A stretch of 64,000 nucleotides of DNA from Tetracentron sinense (Eukaryota > Streptophyta > Magnoliopsida > Trochodendrales > Trochodendraceae), in the NCBI GenBank assembly GCA_015143295.1, contig CM026554.1, positions 50,218,627-50,282,626 of the forward strand, written 5' to 3'. The position numbers and the translations under genes are program-made. Positions 11,901-54,167 of this stretch are shown here, one piece after another. The first letter of the stretch is position 1. Every line of letters starts with the position of its first letter. The notes under the pieces were generated by a model, which searched no databases, was not told the origin of the DNA, and saw nothing but the letters and a program-made list of their open reading frames with translations.

Positions 11901-12967
11901 CTGTATGTATTGATCAGACAAATAAATTTTTTTATAACAAAATATTTAACATGACACACAAAGATATGGCTTTCTCCGTGTTGTTTTTGCCCTGCCATAG
12001 CTACAACATTTGCTACAACATTGTTCCAAACAATTCATTTTACATTTGATTGATTAGACCACATTTCCATGTCAGATGTGGTTTTCTTGACTATGAAGGC
12101 TAAATCCTATGCTATCATTTATCTGGGAATTATAGACCATACCAACAGCAAAAGCTGGGCAACAATTGAACGTGTATAAATAACATCTTTTTTCGAGGTA
12201 GGTAAATCTCTACATAAGCTAAGGATGGAAGGTCCTAAGAAGAGCACCATATACGCGAATCAGCTGAATTTTTCATGTAATCATGTGATACCAAGACCAA
12301 CTTCATGAAGTGCTACAAAGTTCGTGCAGATCCCGACAAAACACCCTAAATCTTCTGAACCCATCTTCTTAAATTTCTGATACGTACCTGGTAGTTATGC
12401 GGATAGTTATTTAGGGATAGGAGTAGTGGTTGGTTTGGGTAGTTTGTAACTGTTTATTTCTCTATATAAGGCATGTAAAACCTTGTTTCTAAATACGATT
12501 AATTAAGAGGTTTGCTTGCCCCCTCGAAGAGGCATCAATGGAGGTCCGGGCTGCCTCGAATCAGCCATATCTCCTCTCCATTTCTTCTTAAATTTATATT
12601 TTAATTTAATTAAAAAGGTACGTAACAGTATCTAAACGTTCAATGCCCAAACCATGGTAGTGGTACTTCACAAAGTAGTTTGAATTGAGGATCTAAACCA
12701 GTTCATGAACAAATGAGTGTACTGAAAACGAATCATAAGAGAATTGAAATCGGAACTCGAAGCAAGAACAAAGGCACTCACGAATTCAACAAAGGCCAGG
12801 TTCCGATTTGCGCCAGCATTGCATTTGGTGTTGAAAATCTCGCCAAATGGCTTACAGAGGTCCACGAGCTCTTCTTCGGTACACTCCCATGGCAAATTAC
12901 GCAGATGCAGCACCTTCGACGGCGTCTGCGTGTAATGGAACTGTGGCTGCCCCGAAGAAGTAGACAT
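2987..12967 (-). CDS. PTB: Polypyrimidine tract-binding protein (PTB1/2-type), first five coding exons
   Basis: This nuclear RNA-binding splicing regulator binds CU-rich RNA. Coding exons by splice sites and protein continuity are 12782-12967, 5668-5877, 3346-3408, 3175-3248 and 2987-3082. They give 629 nt, about 209 residues, in one frame. RRM1 starts near residue 18 (RNP2-like VLHLRNL, RNP1-like NRNLAFVEF at 54-62) and ends with MYIQYSNRQEIVNN. RRM2 starts near 111 (NVLLVTIEG) and runs through IHLVFSAFGFVHKIATFEK and RYLLPEHVG to FSAHTDLNIKFQSHRSR. Both match the plant PTB1/PTB2 subfamily as I know it. The full protein should be roughly twice this length, so RRM3 lies off the left edge. The start codon is the one giving the family's MS..S.QPQF.YTQ.PSKVLHL N terminus. 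Intron 1 is 6.9 kb and TE-filled; the intron between exons 4 and 5 is GC-AG. No frameshift or stop was seen in the exons. Confidence 0.9.
3083..3174 (-). other. GC-AG intron of the PTB gene
   Basis: On the minus strand the upstream exon ends ATACCAAG and the intron begins GCAAGC; it ends TTTCAG before ATACTTGCT. Only this junction (AAG|GCAAGC, a good GC-donor consensus) keeps the reading frame and rebuilds the conserved IPRYLL; the nearby GT (GATGTATACC) would break the frame. The intron is 92 bp. Confidence 0.8.
3642..4866 (+). mobile_element. Probable solo LTR (Ty3/gypsy-like) in PTB intron 2
   Basis: A 1.2 kb block starts TGATCGGTGTTAATTG and ends TTGATAAACA, the TG...CA form of LTRs. It is flanked by AGGAT (3637-3641) and AGGAC (4867-4871), a 5 bp target duplication with one mismatch. 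A segment containing TGTGGTTCGACACCCCAGACT near 4792 resembles 3' LTR ends of plant gypsy elements. No second LTR or internal region is attached, hence solo. The orientation and exact borders are inferred. Confidence 0.45.
5246..5455. repeat. 105 bp tandem duplication
   Basis: A unit starting GGCCTAGAACAAAATG is present twice in tandem (about 5246-5350 and 5351-5455) with only about two differences. It lies in PTB intron 2, about 210 bp beyond the 3' end of exon 2. The near identity points to a recent local duplication. Confidence 0.85.
6046..6526. mobile_element. hAT-type MITE (TAGGGCTGTAAA family), copy 1
   Basis: Terminal inverted repeats start TAGGGCTGTAAATGG and end CCGTTTACAGCCCTA. The flanks are TATAAGAC (6038-6045) and TATGAGAC (6527-6534), an 8 bp target duplication with one mismatch, as for hAT elements. 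The interior is an AT-rich core between many GGATAT and ATATCC words, with no transposase. It sits in PTB intron 1. A related copy is at 60997-61458. Confidence 0.85.
7454..7888. mobile_element. hAT-type MITE, GAGCCGGGC-rich
   Basis: The right end reads CATCCCTA; the left end starts TAGCCGCACACGAGCCGGG, a degraded version of the same inverted repeat. The flanks AGCACATC (7446-7453) and ACCACATC (7889-7896) are an 8 bp target duplication with one mismatch. The interior consists of GAGCTCGGC and AAGCTTGGC words around an AT-rich core and is non-coding. It lies in PTB intron 1. Confidence 0.7.
7897..9039. other. Gene-free intronic stretch
   Basis: No coding exon was recognised. The stretch holds a TC-rich microsatellite-like run at about 8418-8460 and, at about 8160-8300, TE-like words such as GTGCCGACACTTGAACACGAC. 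It lies in PTB intron 1. Confidence 0.4.
9040..9261. mobile_element. hAT-type MITE with CGCCTAGGC core words
   Basis: Perfect 13 bp terminal inverted repeats CAGTGTAGTCAAA and TTTGACTACACTG enclose 222 bp. An exact 8 bp target duplication AAATAAGA lies at 9032-9039 and 9262-9269. The interior repeats GTCGCCTAGGCAACGCCT words near both ends around an AT-rich centre. It is non-coding and lies in PTB intron 1. Confidence 0.85.
10405..11610. repeat. GAGGCTCA-word-rich degenerate repeat
   Basis: The stretch is bordered by AGAGGCGAGGCG at about 10417 and GAGGTCGCCTTCGCC at about 11577. Imperfect repeats of CTTGAGG(C)TTAAATC and TGAGGCTCACTTTT occur about 100 bp apart (10753-10920). It looks like an old non-coding transposon, but no clean termini were found. 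It is within PTB intron 1. Confidence 0.3.
12378..12627 (+). mobile_element. Candidate small solo LTR in PTB intron 1
   Basis: The 250 bp block starts TGATACGTACC and ends GGTACGTAACA: TG...CA termini with inverted TACGTACC/GGTACGTA arms. It contains a TATA-like CTCTATATAAGGC at about 12461-12473. No convincing 5 bp duplication flanks it, so a TIR element is an alternative. It lies about 155 bp inside the donor of PTB exon 1. Confidence 0.35.
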
Positions 12968-13095: not shown

Positions 13096-13192
13096 TAACC
13101 GATTAGGCGACTACTGACTTCGGCTTTTAGAAAAAAGAGTGCTGAGAAGAAGGACCCAGGGTCCTCTTCTAAGCTGACCGGAGTGTGCCATT

Positions 13193-13484
13193 TGAAGACA
13201 AACTAATTTTATTGAAATGCCAAAATGATTACAAAGAGGCCAACTAAGGTTTATATAGATAATAGTATATAGATAAAAATAGAAACTAAATCTAAATCAA
13301 ATATTCTAATCTCTCAATCACAATCTCTTTCTAACTCAAATCTTTCCAATAATCTCAATCTCTTTCTAAATCCAATTCTTTCCAATCATCTCAATTTTAT
13401 TCTAAATCCATTTCTTTCCAATTGTGATGATGGTAATGATATGGTGCATCTCATGCATATCATTACCATACATGTACTCTATTA
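13193..13484 (-). repeat. 3' LTR of the gene-carrying element
   Basis: This 292 bp block is about 97% identical to 14828-15120. Read on the minus strand it starts TAATAG (not the usual TG) and ends CTTCA. It holds TATATAAA (complement of 13250-13258) and AATAAAA near its end, so it retains promoter and polyadenylation signals. The TATA lies about 285 bp upstream of the PTB start codon in the same orientation. Arms 13430-13443 and 13456-13469 form a perfect 14 bp inverted repeat. Confidence 0.85.
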
Positions 13485-13499
13485 CTCCCCCTCAAACTC
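13485..13499 (-). other. Polypurine tract
   Basis: The minus strand reads GAGTTTGAGGGGGAG and abuts the 3' LTR exactly. This is the expected plus-strand primer position and fixes the LTR border and element orientation. Confidence 0.85.
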
Positions 13500-13681
13500 A
13501 TGTAGATTTGAAAATATACGTGAGTTTGATACTTAATCAGTTAAGGTAGCTTGCTAGTCATTCCAATGTCGTTGCAGATCTTGATAGGTGGCAATCGTCA
13601 CTGTTGTTTATGTGTTGTATGATGAGAGAATAATAGGAGCCTCAATGGGCTAGACCTCTATGAGTCAATGAAAAGGGGGTG

Positions 13682-13929
13682 GACCTCAATGGGTCAGGGC
13701 CTCAATGGACCGAATAGCCTCTTGGGCAACGAAATGGGCCTCATGGGCCATAAAAAAGACATCCGTGATCATGCCTATGGTCTTGCCAAAAGGGTCACGG
13801 GTTTGGACCTCAATGGGTTAGGGCCTCAATGGGCCAAATAGCCTCTTGGACAATGAAATGGGCCTTGTGGGCCATATTCAAAAAGACACCCGTGATCGTG
13901 CCTATGGTCTTGCCCAAGGGGTCACGGGT
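13682..13929. repeat. 124 bp tandem duplication, GGCC/CCTCAATGG-rich
   Basis: Two diverged units start GACCTCAATGGGT at 13682 and 13806. Each contains CCTCAATGG, AATAGCCTCTTGG and GTCACGGGT. They form the 3' internal tail of the gene-carrying LTR element, between the captured ORF and the polypurine tract. The sequence is unlike the captured gene and is probably native to the element. Confidence 0.7.
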
Positions 13930-13931
13930 CT

Positions 13932-14411
13932 TCAAAAGGGCCTCTTTGGGCCTAAAAAAGAAAAAATGAGCCTTTCGCTCTTTCTTATGGGCAAAATGGG
14001 TTTGCCTAGCTCCCTCTCACCATGGGCAAAATGACATTTGTCCCCAAACTTGCACCCTTCTGCACTGTTGAATTTGTTGCACATGCAGGTCTTGACGACA
14101 AGCGAAGAAGAACCATCGGGGAAGGATGGTGGTGGGACCACCGGATTTCTCGAAACTGGAGGATGGGCTGGATGCCCACCCAGATTGGTCATGTGAGCCA
14201 CTGCATTGAAGCCACCAGGGACATAGTGCATGAAGTGGCAACCCTCTCCAAATGGGCAGCCAGAAGTGCTGAAAAACTTGGTGCATGGCTTCGATTTGCT
14301 CTCCATACCAGTTGGAAAGGACTCCATTTCTTGTTTGGATCTCTTAAATCCCCCATTTGCATTCAAGGCAGTGTCCGGCCTCCCCCTCTTGCGAGCATGA
14401 CCGAAATCCAT
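13932..14411 (-). CDS. Captured KHZ-type CCCH zinc-finger protein fragment (C-terminal KH domain missing)
   Basis: The 159-codon ORF begins MDFGHARKRGRP in a good context (GTCGCCATGG). Two CX8CX5CX3H fingers are intact: C43/C52/C58/H62 (CTKFFSTSG...CHFMH) and C111/C120/C126/H130 (CNKFNSAEG...CHFAH). The sequence closely follows plant KHZ1/KHZ2-type RNA-binding proteins (nuclear; flowering and senescence in Arabidopsis), which continue after the second finger into a KH domain. Here similarity stops at about residue 138 (ERELGKP); the last 21 residues read into element sequence and no KH domain follows. The ORF runs with the LTR element, between its PBS and PPT, preceded by leader sequence containing AAACCCTAG. 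It may encode a fingers-only protein, or may be non-functional. It could also be annotated as a pseudogene. Confidence 0.75.
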   Translation of the reverse strand: MDFGHARKRGRPDTALNANGGFKRSKQEMESFPTGMESKSKPCTKFFSTSGCPFGEGCHFMHYVPGGFNAVAHMTNLGGHPAHPPVSRNPVVPPPSFPDGSSSLVVKTCMCNKFNSAEGCKFGDKCHFAHGERELGKPILPIRKSERLIFSFLGPKRPF

Positions 14412-14739
14412 GGCGACAAGCACAGATCGAGTTCGAAACAGAGAGAAGACAGGAACAAAATAAAATTAGAATTTGAGGAAATCAAAACCTCGGGTTTGCA
14501 GAAAGCCAAACCCTAGAAAAGGAAGATAGAAAGTTTTTTTTTTTTTTAAATAAAAAAAAAAAACTAGGGTTTGCAGGAGACGAAACGAAAGGGTGTGGTC
14601 TCGAAAAAAGAAAACATTAACAGGCTCTCTAGGTTATAAGGTGAATGAGAGGACCTGTGAAAGAGATGCAGACTTTGACGTGAAGCACTGTTGGCGCCTA
14701 AAAGCTAAAAGTAAAGGTCACGAAACAAGAATTTCACAC

Positions 14740-14769
14740 CCGGCGGGCGGTGGCAGCACCACCCGCCGG
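14740..14769. other. GC-rich hairpin in the retroelement leader
   Basis: CCGGCGGGCGGTGG and CCACCCGCCGG are imperfect inverted arms around a short loop, about 50 bp downstream of the PBS in element orientation. The position resembles leader structures used for packaging or dimerisation in retroelements; function here is inference. Confidence 0.45.
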
Positions 14770-14815
14770 AAAAGCGGAATTTGAAAAAAAAATCAAAATA
14801 AGCAGTGGATCGCCC

Positions 14816-14827
14816 GCTCTGATACCA
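14816..14827 (-). other. Primer-binding site (initiator-Met tRNA type)
   Basis: The minus strand reads TGGTATCAGAGC immediately after the 5' LTR terminus CTTCA. This is the standard plant initiator-Met tRNA-complementary PBS and proves that the enclosed zinc-finger ORF is internal to an LTR retroelement. Confidence 0.9.
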
Positions 14828-15120
14828 TGAAGACAAACTAATTTTATTGAATTGCCAAGATGATTACAAAGAGACCCAACTAGGGTTTATATAGATAATA
14901 GTATACAGATAAAAATAGAAACTAAATCTAAATCAAATATTCTAATCTCTCAATCACAATCTCTTTCTAACTCAAATCTTTCCAATAATCTCAATCTCTT
15001 TCTAAATCCAATTCTTTCCAACCATCTCAATTTCATTCTAAATCCATTTCTTTCCAATTGTGATGATGGTAATGATATGGTGCATCTCATGCATATCATT
15101 ACCATACATGTACCCTATTA
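14828..15120 (-). repeat. 5' LTR of the gene-carrying element
   Basis: The 293 bp partner of 13193-13484. The TATA motif (complement of 14886-14894) and AATAAAA (near 14843) are about 40-45 bp apart, implying a short R region. The perfect inverted arms ATGGTAATGATATG are conserved at 15066-15079 and 15092-15105. Confidence 0.85.
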
Positions 15121-15441
15121 CCCTTGACCCTTTTAACACATTTTTAATCATGGGTAAGCTTAATTAAATTAAAAATAATATTTTTGTTTTTCTACAAACC
15201 ATGGTTAGATTGCTTAACCGTAGGGAGTGAATGAATCCTAACCACAGTTGATGGGTGGTAACAAAGAGGCGTGGGCCAATAAGATCACGGATCAGCTTCT
15301 AAGTTGACCCGGTCCGTTCTTCATTTACCTTTTAGGAAAGAGCAATAGTTTTCAAGTATTTTATTTTTCTAAAAACTAATGGTAGATGGGTGAACCTTTT
15401 TAGGGTGAGTGAATGTGACTCGGTTTTCTTTTTTTTTTACA

Positions 15442-19130: not shown

Positions 19131-20484
19131 TGTAGACACCCCATTTTTGTATGCCCCGATGATTTAACTCCAAGTGTCGAAAGGCGAGCTTCAAATGACG
19201 AGATCCGGACTCCGAAATAGCCCCAAACACACTCCAAGGTCGAAGCCTAAAACAAGCCCAACCCAAGCCCGAGCGTAAATCAGCCAAGACCCAAAGGATA
19301 GGGCCTTTTAAGGCCTAGAAAATCCCGTGCCCTTTAAAAGGGCGCGCCACCTATTGTTGCCATAAATCCTCTCTGCGGCTTCTTAAAGGGTGCGGCACGG
19401 AAAACCCGAAATCCGTCTTCGTTCTGCGTGCTACCTCGTTTTTTGGGTTTTGGGTTATTTTTTTAGTCCCACATCGGGAAAAAACGTGAAAATCCTATTG
19501 TTTTACCTTATAAAAAGAGCCTTACTCCAACCCATAACTCATTTTGGAAAATCCGGAAAGTCTTGAAGACTATGAAAAGACAGAGAAAAGTCTTGAAAAC
19601 TGAGGGAAAATCCTTGAGAGCTTTGAAATTCCGAAGCTTGGGAGAACTCCAAACAAGTTTAACCTAACCCTCGAATCCCAGAAATTCCAGCCATCAAGCC
19701 ATCAACCTAGGAAGGATCTTCACCAACTTTGGGGGAAAATCTTGGGAGTTCGGATCTCGTCGAAGCGTTTTCTTCAAACACTTGGAGCATTAAAAAGGGA
19801 AAAGGTATGCCACATCCCCATCCTCGGTTCTACCCGTCCAAGTCTCTTCTTCTCTCGCTTTCTCTGAGTAGCTCGGAGATTTCCCTCTTCACGGTTGTGC
19901 GGACGAGGAAATCCGGGTGAAGGAAAGGGCCGGAAGACTAGATCTTCGACTTCTCTTTCATTTTTTTATTATTAGTATTTTGCCCCTTTTCCACCCAAAG
20001 GTAGGCGGGACCCCTCTTAACTCGGTTGAGGAGAGATGTGTGGCCGTTCGCCGATTTAGGGAAAAAGGATTTTGCCGCGCAAGTGGAGAGAAACTCACCC
20101 TAACTCGGTCGAGGAGGGGTGACTTTCCAATCTCGAAATAAAAGAAAACAAGTAGGGATGAAATCGCCTTAACTCGGTCGAGGAGGGGTGGTTTTTCTCG
20201 AAATAATAATAAAAAAATAGAAAATAATTTCGAATTAATTTAATGGAGAAAGTTAAGAGGTAACCGTCGCTCGACGGATGAGGTGGGGTGCCTAACACCT
20301 TCCCCAACTCGTAAAAGAATCCCCGGACCCATTCTCGGTTTTTTATTTAATCGAGGGTTCTTAATTGTGGGTGACCAATCACACCCAGAATCTTGATTGG
20401 TGGCGACTCTAACATATCTCGGCTCCTCATCGGTTGAAAAACACGGATGTGGGGAGGGGATCGACTCGGGCCGGCTATCGCACA
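19131..20484 (+). repeat. 5' LTR of the gypsy element
   Basis: The TATA-like TTATAAAAAGAGCC lies near 19507. Downstream, the phrase TAACTCGGTCGAGGAGGGGTG recurs in three to four variants (20022-20190), a small internal repeat of the R/U5 part. The first 3 bp and last 3 bp (TGT...ACA) are perfect inverted. Confidence 0.9.
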
Positions 20485-26873: not shown

Positions 26874-28226
26874 TGTAGACACCCCATTTTTACATGCCCC
26901 GATGATTTAACTCCAAGTGTTGAAAGGCGAGCTTCAAATGACGAGATCCGGACTTCGAAATAGCCCCAAACACACTCCAAGGTCGAAGCCTAAAACAAGC
27001 CCAACCCAAGCCCGAGCGTAAATCAGCCAAGACCCAAAGGATAAGGTCTTTTAAGGCTTAGAAAATCCCGCGCCCTTTAAAAGGGCGCGCCACCTATTGT
27101 TGCCATAAATCCTCTCCACTGCTTCTTAAAGGGCGCGGCACGGAAAACCCGAAATCCGTCTTCGTTTTGCGTGCTACCTCGTTTTTTGAGTTTTGGGTTA
27201 TTTTTTTAGTTCCACATCGGGAAAAAATGTGAAAATCCTATTGTTTCACCTTATAAAAGGAGCCTTACTCCAACCCATAACTCATCTTGGAAAATCCGGA
27301 AAGTCTTGAAGACTTTGAAAAGACGGAGAAAAGTCTTGAAAACTGAGGGAAAATCCTTGAGAGCTTTGAAATTCCGAAGCTTGGGAGAACTCCAAACAAG
27401 TTTAACCTATCCCTCGAATCCCAGAAATTCCAGCCATCAAGCCATCAACCTAGGAAGGATCTTCACCAACTTTGGGGGAAAATCTTGGGAGTTCGGATCT
27501 CGTCGAAGCGTTTTCTTCAAACACTTGGAGCATTAAAAAGGGAAAAGGTATGCCACATCCCCATCCTCGGTTTTTACCCGTCCAAGTCTCTTCTTCCCTT
27601 ACTTTCTCTGAGTAGCTCGGAGATTTCCCTCTTCACGTTTGTGCGGACGAGGAAATCCGGGTGAAGGAAAGGGCCGGAAGACTAGATCTTCGACTTCTCT
27701 TTCATTTTTTTATTATTATTATTTTGCCCCTTTTCCACCCAAAGGTAGGCGGGGCCCCTCTTAACTCGGTTGAGGAGAGATGTGGCCGTTCGCCGATTTA
27801 GGGAAAAGGGATTTTGCCGCGCAAGTGGAGAGAAACTCACCCTAACTCGGTCGAGGAGGGGTGGCTTTCCAATCTCGAAATAAAAGAAAACAAGTAGGGA
27901 TGAAATCGCCTTAACTCGGTCGAGGAGGGGTGGTTTTTCTCGAAATAATAATAAAAAAATAGAAAATAATTTCGAATTAATTTAATGGAGAAAGTTAAGA
28001 GGTAACCGTCGCTCGACGGATGAGGTGGGGTGCCTAACACCTTCCCCAACTCGTAAAAGAATCCCCGGACCCATTCTCGGTTTTTTATTTAATCGAGGGT
28101 TCTTAATTGTGGGTGACCAATCACACCCAGAATCTTGATTGGTGGCGACTCTAACAGATCTCGGCTCCTCATCGGTTGAAAAACACGGATGTGGGGAGGA
28201 GATCGACCCGGGCCGGCTATCGCACA
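26874..28226 (+). repeat. 3' LTR of the gypsy element
   Basis: Partner of 19131-20484. It is colinear, with most differences being transitions and one 2 bp indel (GATGTGTGG versus GATGTGG). It is followed at once by the CTAAT duplication and the continuation of the Copia LTR. Confidence 0.9.
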
Positions 28227-30256: not shown

Positions 30257-30881
30257 GGGAAGAGGGGTCAGAAAGTTCTGAGGTAGAGCACTACACACCT
30301 CTGGTGTTTGCAGAGATGCGGCCTGGAAATTCCGGGGAGGAGGGGGGTAGGGAAATACCAGTCTGCAGTATGCTCCAGGGTATGGTGAAGGAGTTCGATC
30401 CAAATGAAAGGGGAATAGTCCAAGGGGCATTAAGTGATGAGGCAGGAGGAAGAATTCGACATCCATCGGGGAAGGCAGAGTCGACTAAAGGTACGTATGT
30501 TCTCAGTTAGGACGAGTCTACTCCAACAGACCAAGTCCGTTTGGGGAAAATTGGTGAGAGTAAGGGGGATCTTCAGGAACTTCTCCCTCAGATGGAGGAG
30601 GAGGACGTTGCAGTTTGGGTGACAAGGCATATGAAGGGAGTGGGCACAGTGATGGGGCTATCTACGGAAGGGATTGAGAAAGAAACCAGCCGAATTTTTA
30701 ACACCATCGAAGGAGAGTTTAAGGGGGAAAGGGGAAGATCCATAGTGAAGCAGAGTGGAGGTAGAAGAAGTGCCTCAGAAAGGGAAAGAAGGCATCTGGA
30801 ATGTAGTATTAACTACGACAGTGGAAGGGGGAAAAGGAGTTTGGGTAGCTCGCAATCTTCTAGGGACCTTAGGGGTTTGCG

Positions 30882-31931
30882 ATGAGGGGCCTCTCTATAC
30901 TCTCTTGGAACATTCGAGGTTTGGGGCAGGAGGCGAAGAGGGTGGCGATAAAGCAGTTTGTCCGAACCAAGCACCTGGCGATATTATGCATTCAGGAAAC
31001 CAAATTAGCAAAGGTGCAAGAGTTTCACATTAGGGAGTTGTGGGGGAGTCGGATTCTAGGGTGGCTAGAGATACCGGCTTGGGGAGCGTCAAGGGGTATC
31101 TTGCTCTTGTGGGATCCAGAGAGAGTGGAGGTGGTAGAGTCGGAGATGGGGGCTTTCTCGTTATCCATTTTATGCCGGATGACCGGGGAGGATTTTCAGT
31201 GGGTTTTCTCCGGGGTGTATATCCCGGTAGGGAGGACAGATGATATTGAGTTCTGGGAGGAATTAGATGTGAGGGTGAGGTGGGGCAAACCTTGGTGTTT
31301 AGGAGGGGACTTTAATAGTATTCTGTTTTCCTCGGAAAGAAAAGGTGGTTGCCCGATTTCTCCCAAGATGAGGAGGTTTGGCGAGTTTGTGTTTCGGCAC
31401 GGGTTGATAGACTATCCAACTAGAGGAGCGCAGTTCACGTGGTCGAATGGGGGAAACAAGGGAAGGGCAAGCCGTTTGGACCGGTTCCTTGTTGATCAAG
31501 AGTGGGAGGATCACTTCCATAATGCTATTCAGTGGTCTCTGCCGAGACCGATTTCAGATCATGTGCCCATCCTTTTGGAATCAGGGAGCTTTATAGGGGG
31601 CCCAAGCCCCTTTCGGTTTGAGAACATGTGGTTGGAGGATGAGCGTTTTCAGGCCCTAGTAGCCGAGGTGTGGGGCCAAACTAGAGGATGGGGGTCAGCA
31701 AGCACTAGATTTGGGCTCAAACTTAAAGCTTTGAAAGAAAGGTTAAGAATTTGGAACAAGGAGGTTTTCGAAAATATTCAAGTGCGACTTTCTGGTTTGT
31801 TAAGGGAGATAGAAGTTTTGGATGAGAGGTCCGAGGTGCGTGATCTTAGTCCCTATGAAGCTAGAGAGAGAGATGACAAGAAGTTGGAGTACATCTCTAC
31901 CCTTAAGCTCGAAGAGATCGGTTGGAAGTAG
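30882..31931 (+). pseudogene. LINE endonuclease (APE-type) domain
   Basis: The 349-codon frame starts MRGLSILSWNIRGLG and carries apurinic-endonuclease-like motifs: ILCIQETKL (catalytic Glu), GGDFNSI, TWSNGG, SRLDRFL and PISDHVPILL (Asp-His). It nicks target DNA to prime reverse transcription. It ends at TAG (31929-31931) where the family continues; the same frame resumes downstream with FFHRMANHHRK, so this is one nonsense mutation in a long ORF2. Confidence 0.85.
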
Positions 31932-33741
31932 AAAGCGCGGATTCGATGGCTAAAAGAGGGGGATGGGAACACGAAATTCTTTCATAGAATGGCTAACCAC
32001 CATAGGAAGAACAATTTTATCTCCAGGTTAAAGGTGGATGGGAGGTGGGTGGAGGAGAAGGGGGAGATTGAAGATGTCATTGTCTCTTATTTCAAAGGGC
32101 TTTATAGGGAAAGGGACAGGTGGAGGCCTAAGTTAGACGGGCTCCATTTTGATGGGATATCTCAGGGGCAAAGGGAGGGCCTGGAGAGGCAGTTTGAGGA
32201 AGGGGAGGTGCTGGAGGCTATTCGTGGCTTGGCAAGTGATAATGCCCCCGGGCCCGATGGGTTCACCATTAAGTTTTTCAGGGGGTATTGGGAGATAGTG
32301 GAGAAAGATTTACTAGAAGTGATGACAGAGTTCTATGAAACAGGGGGTTTTGACAGAGTTATGAATAGTACTTTCCTTGTGTTGATCCCCAAAAAGGAGG
32401 GAGCAGAGGAGATAAAAAGATTTCAGAGCCATTAGCCTCCTTAGCTGTACGTACAAAATCCTATCTAAAGTTTTAGCCTCATGTATTCAGAAGGTTATGG
32501 CTTCCATCATCTCTCGTCACCAAAGCGCTTTCGTCGGTGGGCGTCATAATTAAATGAAGTTCTAGTGGCAAATGAGTGCATAGACTCCAGGGAGCGTGAG
32601 GGGGACCCGGGCATATTGTGTAAGGTTGACTTAGAGAAGGCATATGACCACGTAAATTAGGAGTTTATGAACTATATTTTGGATAGAATGGGGTTTGGTT
32701 GGAAATGGAGGAAGTGGATGAAGTCTTGCGTGGAGACTGTATCGTTTTCTGTCCTGTTAAATAGAAGTGCCGTAGGATTTTTCCCAAGCTCCAGGAGGTT
32801 GAGGCAAGGAGATCCTATCTCCCCTTTCCTCTTTGTGATTGTAGTAGAGGCGTTGAGTAGAATGTTGACAAAAGCTGAAGGGGATCTGTTTGAAGGCTTT
32901 CGGATTGGTCAGCAAGGGTTGAGGATTTCTCATCTTCAATTTGTGGATGATGTTCTCATTTTTTGCAGGGCTTCGCTAAGGGATCTTCTAAACATCAGTG
33001 TTTGTTGCGGTGTTTTGAAGTGGTGTCAGGTTTAAGAGTCAATCTGGCAAAATCAGAGATTCTGAAGGTGGGGGAGGTGTCTATCATGGATCACCTTGCC
33101 ATTTGTTTAGGATGCAGAGTGGGGTCTCTGCCAGCAGTGTATCTTGGCTTACCTTTGGGAGCGAAATACAAGGCCAAATCAGTTTGGAATCCTGTGTTAG
33201 AACGCATCGATCGTAAATTGTCAGCTTGGAGGGCTTCCTATTTATCGAAAGGGGGGAAAATGACCTTGATTCGAAGCACGATGCAAAGCCTGCCAATTTA
33301 CTTCATGTCGGCTCTTACCATACCTCGAGTGGTGGCATTTTCCATAGAAAGGATCCAGAGGGATTTCTTATGGAATGACAGAGAGAATCGTGCAAAGTAC
33401 CACCTAGTAGCGTGGGATCAGTTGTGTTGGCCAAAGGAGTTTGGGGGTTTGGGGGTTTGAACTTTAAAAAGCCAATTCATATGAACAAAGCGTTGCTAGG
33501 AAAGTGGGTGTGGCGTTTTGGAGAGGACCGAGACAGTTTGTGGAGGGAGGTGATAGCGGCTAAGTATAGGGAGTCTTCCTTTTGGATCCCTAAGGAGGTT
33601 AGAGGCACTTATGGGAAGGGGTTATGGAAGGGCATAATGGCTATTGCTAGGGAAGTAGTGCCGTTCTTCAGGTTCCGAGCAGGGCAAGGAGCGGAGATCA
33701 GGTTTTGGAAGGACATATGGATAGGTTCCTCTCGATTCTAG
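31932..33741 (+). pseudogene. LINE reverse transcriptase, frameshifted
   Basis: RT motifs follow in order: NAPGPDGFT (32240s), a 1-nt frameshift in an A run near 32415, SRHQSAFVGGR, another shift near 32548, [13 protein letters not shown] followed by a TAG in place of Trp (32658-32660), LRQGDPISPFLF, and FVDD at the catalytic site in place of FADD (32940-32951). The thumb/connection region GLPLGAKYK, SKGGKMTLI and FGGLNFKKP continues to 33741 with further frame changes. It is non-functional. Confidence 0.85.
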
Positions 33742-34623
33742 GACGAATTTGGCAATCTTTTTATTGTTTCTTCGGACAGGGAAGCTCTTGTGGAGGAGTC
33801 CTATGAGGTAACTCCAGAGGGAGTTGTTTGGTGCTCAAGGATGAGACGGGACCTGAATGATTGGGAGATTGGAGATTTTTTTCGGCTGTTGGAGCGCCTC
33901 ACCTCAGGGAGTGTGTGCCCAGGGGTTAGGGATTGCAGGACATGGACTAGGAGCAGCAACGGGAGGTTCTCGGTCCGGCAATTGTATCAGGCTTTGTCTC
34001 CACCTCTGGGAGGTCCGTTTTCTCATAGAGGTGTGGAAACCGGGAATACCCTCAAAGGTCTCTTTTTTCCTGTGGTCAGCATATTAGGGAAAAATTCTTA
34101 CAGGTGATCAACTGAAGCGTAGAGGGTGGAGTTTGGCGAATAGATGCTTTTTGTGCTTTCAGGAGGAAGAAACAACGGATCATCTCCTATTGCACTGCCC
34201 AGTAGCGTATGAGGTGTGAAGTTTTTTCCTCAACAGGATGGGAGTGGGGTGGGTGTTCCCTTCCTCTTTCAGTAATTTCCTTGATTGTTGGAATACGGAA
34301 AAAGGAGGGGGAGGCAGGGAGGTGGTTTGGGGAGCTCTTCCAGGGGCGATATCGTGGTCTCTTTGGAAAGAGAGAAATAAAAGAGTTTTTGAAGAATCTT
34401 CGACTCCAGTGCACAGGATTTGCGACCGCATCAGATTGGGAGTCTTGGAGTGGGTTAGTATAATTGGGGCTAGGGTGGATGTCCAGTTGTTTTTGTATTA
34501 GCCTTTGTAGGCGCAGGGTGGGGTTCTAGGAGTAGTTTTGGCTGTTTTCGGGTTTACTTGCTTGTAAACCCGAAGGCGTTTGTGTAAAGGGGAGTTTGCT
34601 TTGAATAAAAGGAGATATTGATC
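33742..34623 (+). pseudogene. LINE C-terminal zf-RVT-like region and 3' UTR
   Basis: Across three frames the sequence reads WTRSSNGRFSVRQLYQAL, then LKRRGWSLANRCFLCFQEEE and DHLLLHCPVAYEV, a zf-RVT-type CxxC...HxxxxC motif, and ISWSLWKERNKRVFEES. These are the usual last segments of plant L1 ORF2. The tail carries AATAAAA before the A tract. Confidence 0.75.
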
Positions 34624-51903: not shown

Positions 51904-52738
51904 TGGCAGAGTTCTCCGTATTATCATGGAATGTTCGGGATTTGGGGTTACCAGAGAATGTGTGGCTGTTAAGCGGGTGGTGAGATATAGGAGGTCGGCT
52001 ATTATGTGTATCCAGGAGACTAAACTAGAAGTGATCCAAGATTTCATTATCCGAGATGTGTGGGATACCTCCAATCCAAATTGGCTTGAAGTTCCATCTT
52101 TGGGAGCTTCGGGAGGAATTCTTTTGGTGTGGGATAAGGAAAAGCTGGAGGTGGTGGAGTCAAAATTAGGGGCATATTCGATCTCCATTCTCTGCCGTTG
52201 GGTGGGAGAAGAGTTCCTATGGGTTTTTTCGGGCATCTACGGCCCCTCTGGTGGGTCAGACGATGCAGTTTTCTGGAACGAGTTAGATGATGTTATCGTA
52301 AGATGGGGCGCTCCATGATGCTTGGGTGGTGATTTCAACGGTATCCGATTCTTTGAGGAGCGTAAAGGGGGGTGTGTGGTGAACGCTAAGATGAGAAGAT
52401 TTGGGGCATTTATTGAGCGACATGATTTGATTGACTTTCCGATGAAGGGTCTCTTGTTTACGTGGGCTCACTCAGTTTCCAGCAGTTCAGCGAGCAGGTT
52501 GGACATGTTCCTGTGCTCTCCGGAATGGGAGAGTCAGTTTCCTAATTTTATTCATTCATCCTTGCCCCGTCCCATTTCAGATCATGTGTCGTTATTATTG
52601 GAGAATAGGCAGTTCCGAAGGGGCCCTACTCCGTTTAAGTTCGAAAACATGTGGCTTCAAGATGAGAGGTTTAAAGGGGTCGTGGAGGAAGTTTGGAATT
52701 CTAGGGAGAGTCAGGGGCTAGCCATTACAAGATTTGGT
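51904..52738 (+). pseudogene. LINE endonuclease domain, frameshifted and truncated
   Basis: It starts MAEFSVLSWNVRDLG, then shifts frame and continues RYRRSAIMCIQETKL, GASGGILLVWD and FSGIYGPSGGSDDAVFWNELDD, stops at TGA (near 52319), then GGDFNGI, TWAHSV, SRLDMFL and PISDHVSLLL. After TRFG (52738) it jumps straight to FFHRMANYHRK, lacking the 270 bp linker present in the other LINE. Confidence 0.8.
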
Positions 52739-53081
52739 TTTTCATAGGATGGCTAACTATCACCGGAAAAGTAACTTTATCTCCAGACTTCAGGTTTATG
52801 GTGAGTGGCGGGAGGACGCAACCAAGATAGTGGATAGTGTGGTTTCCTTCTACCAGGATTTATATCAAGAAAATGAAGTGTGGCGTCCCAAGTTGGAAGG
52901 TTTACCTTTTGAGAGTCTTCTAGCTGAGCAAAGAGAGTCCTTGGAGGGAGCTTTTGAAGAAGAGGAGGTCCTAGGGGCCATCCGGAATATTGCTAGGAAT
53001 AAAGCTCCGGGCCCGGATGGTTTTAGTATTGAATTGCACCGATCTTGTTGAGACATTATTGGCAAGGACTTCCTAGGGATA

Positions 53082-54167
53082 ATGAAGGAATTGTATGAGC
53101 TTGGGAGTTTTGATAGGGCGATTAACAATATTTTTGTCGTGTTGATTCCGAAACAGAGAGGAGTAGTGCATATCAGAGATTTCAGGCCGATTAGCATTGT
53201 CGGTAGTCTGTACAAGATTCTCTCCAAAGTCCTAGCAGGCCGCCTTAAGAGAGTGATGGGGCATATTATCTCTCCCCAACAAGGAGCCTTTGTGGGGGGA
53301 CGACAGATTCTTGACGGCATCCTAATAGCCAACGAATGCATCGATGACAGACTTAGAGCTAAGGATCCAGGCATTTTGTGTAAGGTGGACATGGAGAAAG
53401 CTTATGACCACGTAAACTGGGAGTTCTTGGACTATGTGATAAAAAGAATAGGTTTCGGTCTCAGGTGGAGACATTGGATCCGGTTGTGCATTTCTTCCGT
53501 GATATTTTCCATTCTCATCAATGGGAATCTAGTTGGTTATTTTCGAAGTTCAAGGGGATTAAGACAAGGGGACCCTCTTTCCCCCTTTCTTTTCATCATG
53601 GTCTTAGAAGCTTTGAGCAGGATTCTGACTCGTGCCGACGAAGTGCTATTTGAGGGGTTTTCTCTAGGGAGAGAAAGATTGAGGATTTCACACCTCCAGT
53701 TTGCCGATGACACTTTAATCTTTTGCAGAGCTTCCCGTCAGGATTTAGGTTCTCTAATAGGACTTCTTCATTGCTTCGAAGCCGTTTCCGAGTTGCAAGT
53801 TAACATGTCAAAATCCGAAATAGTGAGCGTCGGGGAGATCTCAGACATAGACAGCCTAGCAGAGAGCATCGGCTGTAGGGTTGGGTTCTTACCATCAGTT
53901 TACCTAGGGGTTCCCCTCAATGCTCGTTTTAAATCTAAGGTAGTGTGGGCCCCGGTTCTGGAGAGATTTGCTAAGAGATTGTCAAGGTGGCAAGCATCCT
54001 TCTTATCCAAAGGGGGGAAGTTAACTCTGATCCATAGTACTCTGCGCAGTATGCCAACTTATTTCATGTCTACTATGGTCATTCTCCGATCAATGGCGGT
54101 GACCCTTGAACGATTACAAAGAATTTCCTGTGGCATGGGAAAGGAGATCAGGCGAAGTACCATTTAG
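53082..54167 (+). pseudogene. LINE reverse transcriptase core, open over 361 codons
   Basis: The frame contains [68 protein letters not shown] and the catalytic HLQFADDTLIFC with FADD intact, then VYLGVPLNARFKS and SKGGKLTLIH. Upstream, 52734-53051 encodes the preceding AVFE-to-NKAPGPDGF segment in another frame, with a TGA at 53049-53051 in between. The palm is well preserved, but the full ORF2 is broken on both sides. Confidence 0.85.

Follow-up and report, generated by a model that had tools for sequence, protein, structure and literature searches.

A spliced KHZ zinc-finger gene fragment in a compact, non-autonomous LTR retrotransposon family of Tetracentron sinense

A window of 64,000 nucleotides of the Tetracentron sinense genome (assembly GCA_015143295.1, contig CM026554.1, forward strand; C4:50218627-50282626 in the assembly search) was analysed for a small long terminal repeat (LTR) retrotransposon on its minus strand at 13193-15120. 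The element belongs to a compact plant LTR family of non-autonomous type, resembling terminal-repeat retrotransposons in miniature (TRIM) or large retrotransposon derivatives (LARD), and holds a spliced segment of a host KHZ-type CCCH zinc-finger gene between a leader and a 3' block. The explanation as a whole, namely that such a family captured spliced KHZ RNA, that the window copy arose by shortening of a longer element and that the captured piece is a neutral passenger, is considered highly likely. A first-pass annotation, made from the letters of the window, had described a non-autonomous LTR element with a captured host KHZ segment in sense orientation; this part was upheld, but its functional speculation was not. 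The complete element and its flanks consist of the following parts, given in window coordinates.

13188..13192, no strand: left copy of the target-site duplication (TSD), CCATT, with 4 of 5 bases identical to the right copy
13193..13484, minus strand: 3' LTR, 292 bp, TAATAG...TTCA on the minus strand, 97% identity to 14828-15120
13485..13499, minus strand: polypurine tract (PPT) GAGTTTGAGGGGGAG, flush with the 3' LTR, identified by sequence
13500..13985, minus strand: family-specific 3' internal block, present in sister elements without KHZ (82-98% matches)
13986..13993, minus strand: 8-bp filler TGCCCATA at the junction of KHZ segment and 3' block, identified by sequence
13994..14611, minus strand: captured spliced KHZ segment, with parts of three exons of a gene on contig C12 and without introns
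13932..14411, minus strand: open reading frame (ORF) of 159 codons, with KHZ residues 1-139 (fingers 1 and 2) and 20 novel residues
14608..14815, minus strand: family-specific 5' leader, 95-97% to sister elements; loci L029-L034 hold another gene behind this leader
14739..14770, minus strand: hairpin of 14 pairs (two G-U) with a loop of 4, just after the primer-binding site (PBS) in the leader RNA
14816..14827, minus strand: PBS TGGTATCAGAGC, the reverse complement of 14816-14827, flush with the 5' LTR
14828..15120, minus strand: 5' LTR, 293 bp, with a TATA box from 14893 and AATAAA from 14848 (minus strand)
15121..15125, no strand: right copy of the TSD, CCCTT, with 4 of 5 bases identical to the left copy

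The complete LTR-PBS-PPT-LTR structure claimed in the first-pass annotation was thus recovered, PBS and PPT being flush with the LTRs. Similar LTRs with a short, near-perfect TSD, a PBS at the 5' LTR and a PPT at the 3' LTR identify the element as an LTR retrotransposon. The PBS 12-mer, which we take to be of the initiator-Met tRNA type, occurs as a single copy in the window, both strands counted. The 3' LTR (13193-13484) contains TATATAAACC and AATAAA. The LTR pair differs by 8 substitutions (7 transitions, 1 transversion) over 292 aligned bases with 2 gap columns (Kimura two-parameter distance 0.028), corresponding to about 1.1, 2.8 or 5.6 million years at assumed substitution rates of 1.3e-8, 5e-9 or 2.5e-9 per site and year. 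Element ends were checked by scanning 15 loci for TSDs. A perfect 5-bp TSD was present in all nine sister elements with two full LTRs on one strand; L008, L028, L034, L035, L036 and L039 are without two full same-strand LTRs and were uncounted.

The absence of gag and pol was confirmed, with no Pfam match to them in any of the 12 internal-region frames outside the ORF stretch and with CCCH matches only in the ORF itself. Pfam scans of leader and 3' block gave EBNA2_Core (15.8 bits, cut-off 35) and TraA (14.4 bits, cut-off 22.6) as sole matches, which were taken as chance. With gag, protease, integrase and reverse transcriptase all lacking a Pfam match, the element was classified as non-autonomous (TRIM/LARD type). 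TRIMs in the strict sense have LTRs of about 100-250 bp and an internal domain of a few hundred bases; with an LTR of 293 bp and an internal region of 1.34 kb, the window element is "TRIM-like" only.

The donor of the captured segment was searched for in the assembly of the same organism (1479 contigs, 1.16 Gb). With 13500-14815 as DNA query, at least 56 matches were obtained, 40 of 552 candidates being scored. Most of these matches are confined to the 3' block (13500-13985 or to 13841) or to the leader (14608 or 14699 to 14815), and the KHZ middle was matched at three loci among the matches listed: the window, contig C459 and contig C11. A protein search yielded 14 matches, including the exons of an intact KHZ gene on C12, an intron-bearing parent of the kind that the first-pass annotation had predicted for a capture:

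3545583-3545311: C12 exon 1
3544204-3544139: C12 exon 2
from 3532488: C12 exon 3

The introns of this gene (about 1.1 and 11.7 kb, GT..AG ends) are exactly absent from the elements in the window and on C459, and thus spliced RNA was captured. From exon 1, part of the 5' untranslated region and the first codons were captured; exon 2 and the beginning of exon 3 follow. The window element is 94.0, 95.6 and 98.2% identical to the three exons and 97.9% identical over 418 nt of coding sequence (CDS). A host donor outside the element could thereby be identified, with its introns missing from the payload, as is characteristic of gene capture. No family LTR was found in the 19 kb surrounding the C12 gene. 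Over exon 3, the KHZ paralogues on C11 and C7 are less similar to the C459 copy (88.7 and 82.9%).

The C12 gene has an intact frame of 304 residues with finger 1, finger 2, KH_1 (7.5e-14) and finger 3. Two of its three CCCH fingers were scored by Pfam above E 0.001 alone, and the other was read from the C-x8-C-x5-C-x3-H spacing. Four poplar homologues of At5g06770 have 284-335 residues and three CCCH motifs as read here (PMC3427045), and Arabidopsis genes are given with two CCCH motifs (PMC2267713).

In the protein encoded by the ORF of the window element, two zf-CCCH stretches (PF00642, counted at E up to 1) were detected, with 5.1e-7 for the whole protein. All eight zinc ligands are retained (C43, C52, C58 and H62; C111, C120, C126 and H130). 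The two fingers are therefore intact as claimed in the first-pass annotation, but its wording "both" does not apply to a parent with three. By tblastn of the parent protein against the window, residues 1-139 were matched at 95.7% in the ORF. No KH domain, third finger or continuation of the KH exons was found elsewhere in the window by this search, the only further matches being those of finger 3 to the ORF fingers and two weak ones at E 0.8-0.9. The ORF had been described as ending just before the KH domain. It contains no KH domain, but its KHZ-derived part ends at residue 139, about 40 residues before KH_1 (which starts at 179 in the parent), and is followed by the novel residues. With two fingers and no KH, the ORF does not encode a KHZ protein as defined by KH plus CCCH; the parent has both.

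Neither the parent nor a second copy was found within the window. Comparison of the ORF with prokaryote and viral contig collections gave 361 and 5 pattern matches, respectively, with zero confirmed. An antisense ORF at 14022-14516 (plus strand, 164 codons) overlaps the CCCH ORF and was set aside with nothing in its favour. A scan for bacterial promoters and terminators (12 sigma-70-like sites vs 3.8 expected, 4 terminator-like sites vs 2.1) is meaningless for a plant and was not used.

A second complete element of 2558 bp with a perfect TSD (TGTAT) was located at C459:29176-31733, so that another LTR-bounded copy with the fragment exists, as anticipated in the first-pass annotation. Its LTRs differ at 7 of 292 positions, and its KHZ segment is 97.1, 98.5 and 97.4% identical to C12 exons 1, 2 and 3. 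In this copy, KHZ runs past finger 2 into the KH domain (KH_1 1.7e-10), to about residue 233. It is followed by the 13-nt sequence AAGTATCAAACTC, which is identical to the family's own 3' end or, equally, is KHZ with a 2-nt insertion, by an antisense HSP70 fragment (9.4e-32), and by the family's native 3' middle, which matches L006 at 92% over 135 bases. The intron that the HSP70 fragment lacks is present in donor candidates on C2 (99 and 98% for the first exon piece, 96% for the second); a gene on C6 matches at 90 and 88%. A third KHZ copy, on C11, is 5'-truncated and 99% identical to C459 over 872 bases, and an element on C3 holds the HSP70 piece without KHZ. The flanks of the window copy on C4 and of the C459 copy differ, and the third copy lies on C11; with KHZ-bearing elements at different places, the element moved after capture.

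From these comparisons, the window copy is most simply regarded as a shortened derivative of a C459-like element. Since the captured segment on C459 includes KH, the absence of KH from the window copy would most simply be due to later loss. In the simplest order of events, KHZ and HSP70 would have been present first, and the middle would then have been lost in the window lineage.

Constraint on the ORF was assessed over the shared 414 nt, in which 10 positions separate the window copy from C12, 6 separate the C459 copy from C12, and 6 separate the two elements from each other. Five codon differences from C12 are common to the window and C459. At codons 12, 14, 82 and 137 the C11 paralogue equals C12, and these four shared changes look element-derived; at codon 98, it is C12 that deviates when the C11 paralogue is compared. 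The changes restricted to the window (I36M, G37E, P104L and R109C) comprise 4 non-synonymous and 0 synonymous ones, at 322 vs 92 sites, counts too small for a test of selection; through R109C a new cysteine stands two residues ahead of C111, the first ligand of finger 2. On C459, the frame is stopped (Y63*). In a neutral-drift simulation, the frame stayed open in 68-92% of runs in all 6 settings. An open frame is thus expected under neutral drift, and the open ORF is no evidence of function. A functional role of the captured ORF, as proposed in the first-pass annotation, is accordingly not supported by comparison of the sequences: constraint was not visible, the sister frame contains a stop, and chance alone would be expected to leave a frame of this age open.

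Two functional readings were weighed against the neutral one. In one, the main role of the captured fragments would be to give rise to small RNAs by which the parental KHZ gene is tuned or silenced. The match of 97.9% to its CDS over 418 nt would favour this, but the KHZ piece is sense-oriented, is present in three loci only among the matches listed, and the parent is structurally intact; this role was judged unlikely. Less likely still is the expression of a fingers-only KHZ protein that has two CCCH fingers, lacks KH and the third finger and competes for RNA with the parent. The open 159-codon frame, the eight intact ligands, the sense orientation downstream of a TATA-bearing LTR and the strong start context are consistent with such a protein. 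Against it stand the four window-only changes, all non-synonymous and one adding a cysteine near finger 2, the sister stop at codon 63, and the simulations, 68-92% of which leave the frame intact by chance. With transcription starting about 30 nt past the TATA box, the ORF would have two short ORFs (11 and 17 codons) ahead of it.

The junctions of the captured segment were compared between the two complete copies. At the 5' junction, about 190 nt upstream of the C12 start codon, leader and KHZ overlap by a 4-nt microhomology, TCTT (14608-14611), and this junction is identical in the window and C459. At the 3' junction of the window copy, KHZ ends with residue 139 and is linked to the 3' block by the filler TGCCCATA; filler and neighbouring bases repeat the 12-mer CATTTTGCCCAT, which is also present 35 nt upstream within KHZ. 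The different 3' junctions of window and C459 could suggest that KHZ was captured twice independently and that the window copy ended before KH from the start. Such a double capture is very improbable in view of the same 5' junction and the five shared codon differences from C12, four of them apparently element-derived. That the LTR pair represents separate insertions flanking a native KHZ gene or retrogene, as the single mismatch in the window TSD might hint, can be practically dismissed: the LTRs are 97% alike and belong together with a PBS and a PPT that are in register with them, leader and 3' block are common to sisters with another middle, and C459 is an independent insertion with the identical leader/KHZ junction and a perfect TSD.

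For the capture of spliced KHZ RNA by a TRIM/LARD-like element, the following mechanism is proposed. The element RNA would be packaged and reverse-transcribed by the enzymes of an autonomous relative, and the leader hairpin behind the PBS may serve packaging. Reverse transcriptase would switch template between co-packaged RNAs at short microhomologies, namely TCTT on the 5' side and CATTT plus templated filler on the 3' side. The mechanisms reviewed for LTR elements of plants are abnormal template switching and transduction (PMC13317346). The window copy would then have arisen from a C459-like ancestor by loss of KH, HSP70 and the native middle of the family. In this copy the LTR would drive RNA through the ORF, with the KHZ fragment as a neutrally drifting passenger; the likeliest effect on the host, if any, would be exerted via RNA homology to the parent and not via a selected protein.

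Several points weigh against this account. The window TSD agrees in 4 of 5 bases and not in all five. A translated product is conceivable, the ORF being open, with its eight zinc ligands kept and a good start context (GTCGCCATGG), and neutrality cannot be proved from as few as four codon changes. A later deletion at the DNA level could explain why the window lineage lacks KH and HSP70. Template switching was deduced from the junctions, and cDNA recombination before integration would look similar. An autonomous partner was not found, with no long element among the paired sites (at least 25 of 59).

The family was surveyed with two junction patterns, both derived from the window copy, so that a partner with other ends would escape them. 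The PPT-LTR pattern was found at 221 genome sites with up to 2 mismatches and the LTR-PBS pattern at 59; control patterns gave 0 in each case. At least 25 of the 59 PBS sites pair with a PPT site (100 of the 221 PPT sites listed), with internal lengths of 202-3167 bases to the nearest partner. Site L071 (C18:29158800-29164100), a PBS-variant site considered as autonomous partner, was rejected as such; it is a further cargo carrier and has two antisense HSP90 pieces (9.5e-13 and 2.9e-7). A 331-codon frame beside these pieces resembles a matrixin.

The same slot is occupied by other cargoes. An antisense 2-oxoglutarate (2OG)-dependent dioxygenase (DIOX_N 3.2e-17) was found at 13 loci at 96-100%, the query's own included. 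A further locus matches at 91% and C18 has a remnant of 61 bases; two loci on C17 are possible donors at 85%. In this subfamily (L029-L034 and others), the LTRs differ at 2-4 positions per 280-294 aligned bases in five elements measured, and it is probably recent, as judged from the low LTR divergence. Counting the query's own, 8 loci have a PPR-gene cargo at 97-100%, and its donor candidates match at 86 and 80%. This middle is without Pfam match; it was named from a locus with PPR repeats in a 912-residue frame, to which its DNA is 86% identical. Four of the 8 loci belong to a tandem family array with five LTRs, four PPR-bearing internal regions and the TSD GGATC at C12:40306331-40313589 (L037 332-7590); it resembles tandemly arrayed TRIMs (PMC4717578). 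The middles of L006 and L035 were compared with Pfam in six frames each (5 of 12 in part) with none above cut-off and one chance-level Tetraspanin match (16.5 bits vs cut-off 32.1). The protein-family scan of unassigned middles left out L007 and L008.

These cargoes point, with a slight preference on our side, to a family that is the retroelement counterpart of Pack-TYPE transposons within one genome. Between a fixed leader and 3' block, a central slot would have been refilled repeatedly by reverse transcription with spliced host mRNA (KHZ, HSP70, HSP90, 2OG dioxygenase and PPR, in sense or antisense), and some cargoes would then have been amplified as subfamilies; splicing was tested for the KHZ and HSP70 cargoes only.

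Further features were recorded in the element. A two-unit degenerate direct repeat (2 x ~126 bp, 13680-13929) lies in the 3' block and is also present in sisters. Folding of 14640-14860 (221 nt) gave a z-score of -2.85, with 1 of 200 shuffles equally good, and the leader hairpin at 14739-14770 may be a candidate signal for packaging or dimerisation. The U3 of both LTRs (13432-13467 and 15068-15103) contains a perfect inverted repeat of 12 bp, GGTAATGATATG...CATATCATTACC, as a possible regulatory palindrome.

In the remainder of the window, the element is situated 225 bp upstream of the first exon (12782-12967, minus strand) of a polypyrimidine-tract-binding-protein (PTB)-like gene in the same orientation. 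This gene was recognised by RRM_1 (4e-9) with PTB structures among the matches, and a further exon near 5862-5790 (minus strand) was indicated by motif. The 3' LTR of the element could influence the promoter of this gene. Direct repeats of 1.35 kb at 19131-20484 and 26874-28226, 97% alike, surround a Retrotrans_gag frame (2e-9) and form a larger LTR element. Frames resembling long interspersed nuclear elements were noted at 30873-34107 and 52000-54167, with RVT_1 at 1.3e-31 in the second, which was the only one scanned.

Gene capture by small LTR elements is already known, and the window element is a well-documented new case. Bs1 of maize is likewise an LTR element with exon-only pieces of several host genes and a chimeric ORF (PMC13317346; PMC4717578); it has other captured genes and LTRs and three transduced segments, compared with two on C459 and one in the window, and the window element is known here from its sequence alone. 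Gene-carrying TRIMs were described as 30 elements in seven subfamilies with exon-only fragments, two of them with several donors (PMC4717578). Those of soybean and Medicago (e.g. GmaRetroS15) have 1,172-1,449 bp and intronless exon fragments, most in at least 2 copies (PMC4717578), whereas the window element has 1.93 kb and another donor, and four other donor genes were recognised in the slot of its family in one genome. In rice and sorghum, host genes lie inside full-length elements with PBS and PPT, some of them multi-copy (PMC3726574); these are annotated genes, whereas a spliced 5' gene fragment with a verified donor was found here. Pack-MULE and Pack-CACTA elements share the non-autonomous vehicle with a variable host-gene payload (PMC13317346) but are DNA transposons, Pack-MULEs carrying exons and introns (PMC4717578), in contrast to the LTR element with spliced payload described here. 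Neither a KHZ capture nor a single LTR family with this cargo set was found among the titles and abstract starts of the best-ranked open-licence literature.

The refilling of one slot at the level of the family is the more interesting part, compared with the window element alone. One genome offers an unusually complete case, with an intron-bearing donor, longer and shortened copies, junctions with microhomology and filler, and subfamilies with other cargoes. The template-switch route of gene capture by LTR elements thereby becomes testable step by step, and cargoes of different age provide a natural set for asking how often captured fragments are silenced, lost or kept.

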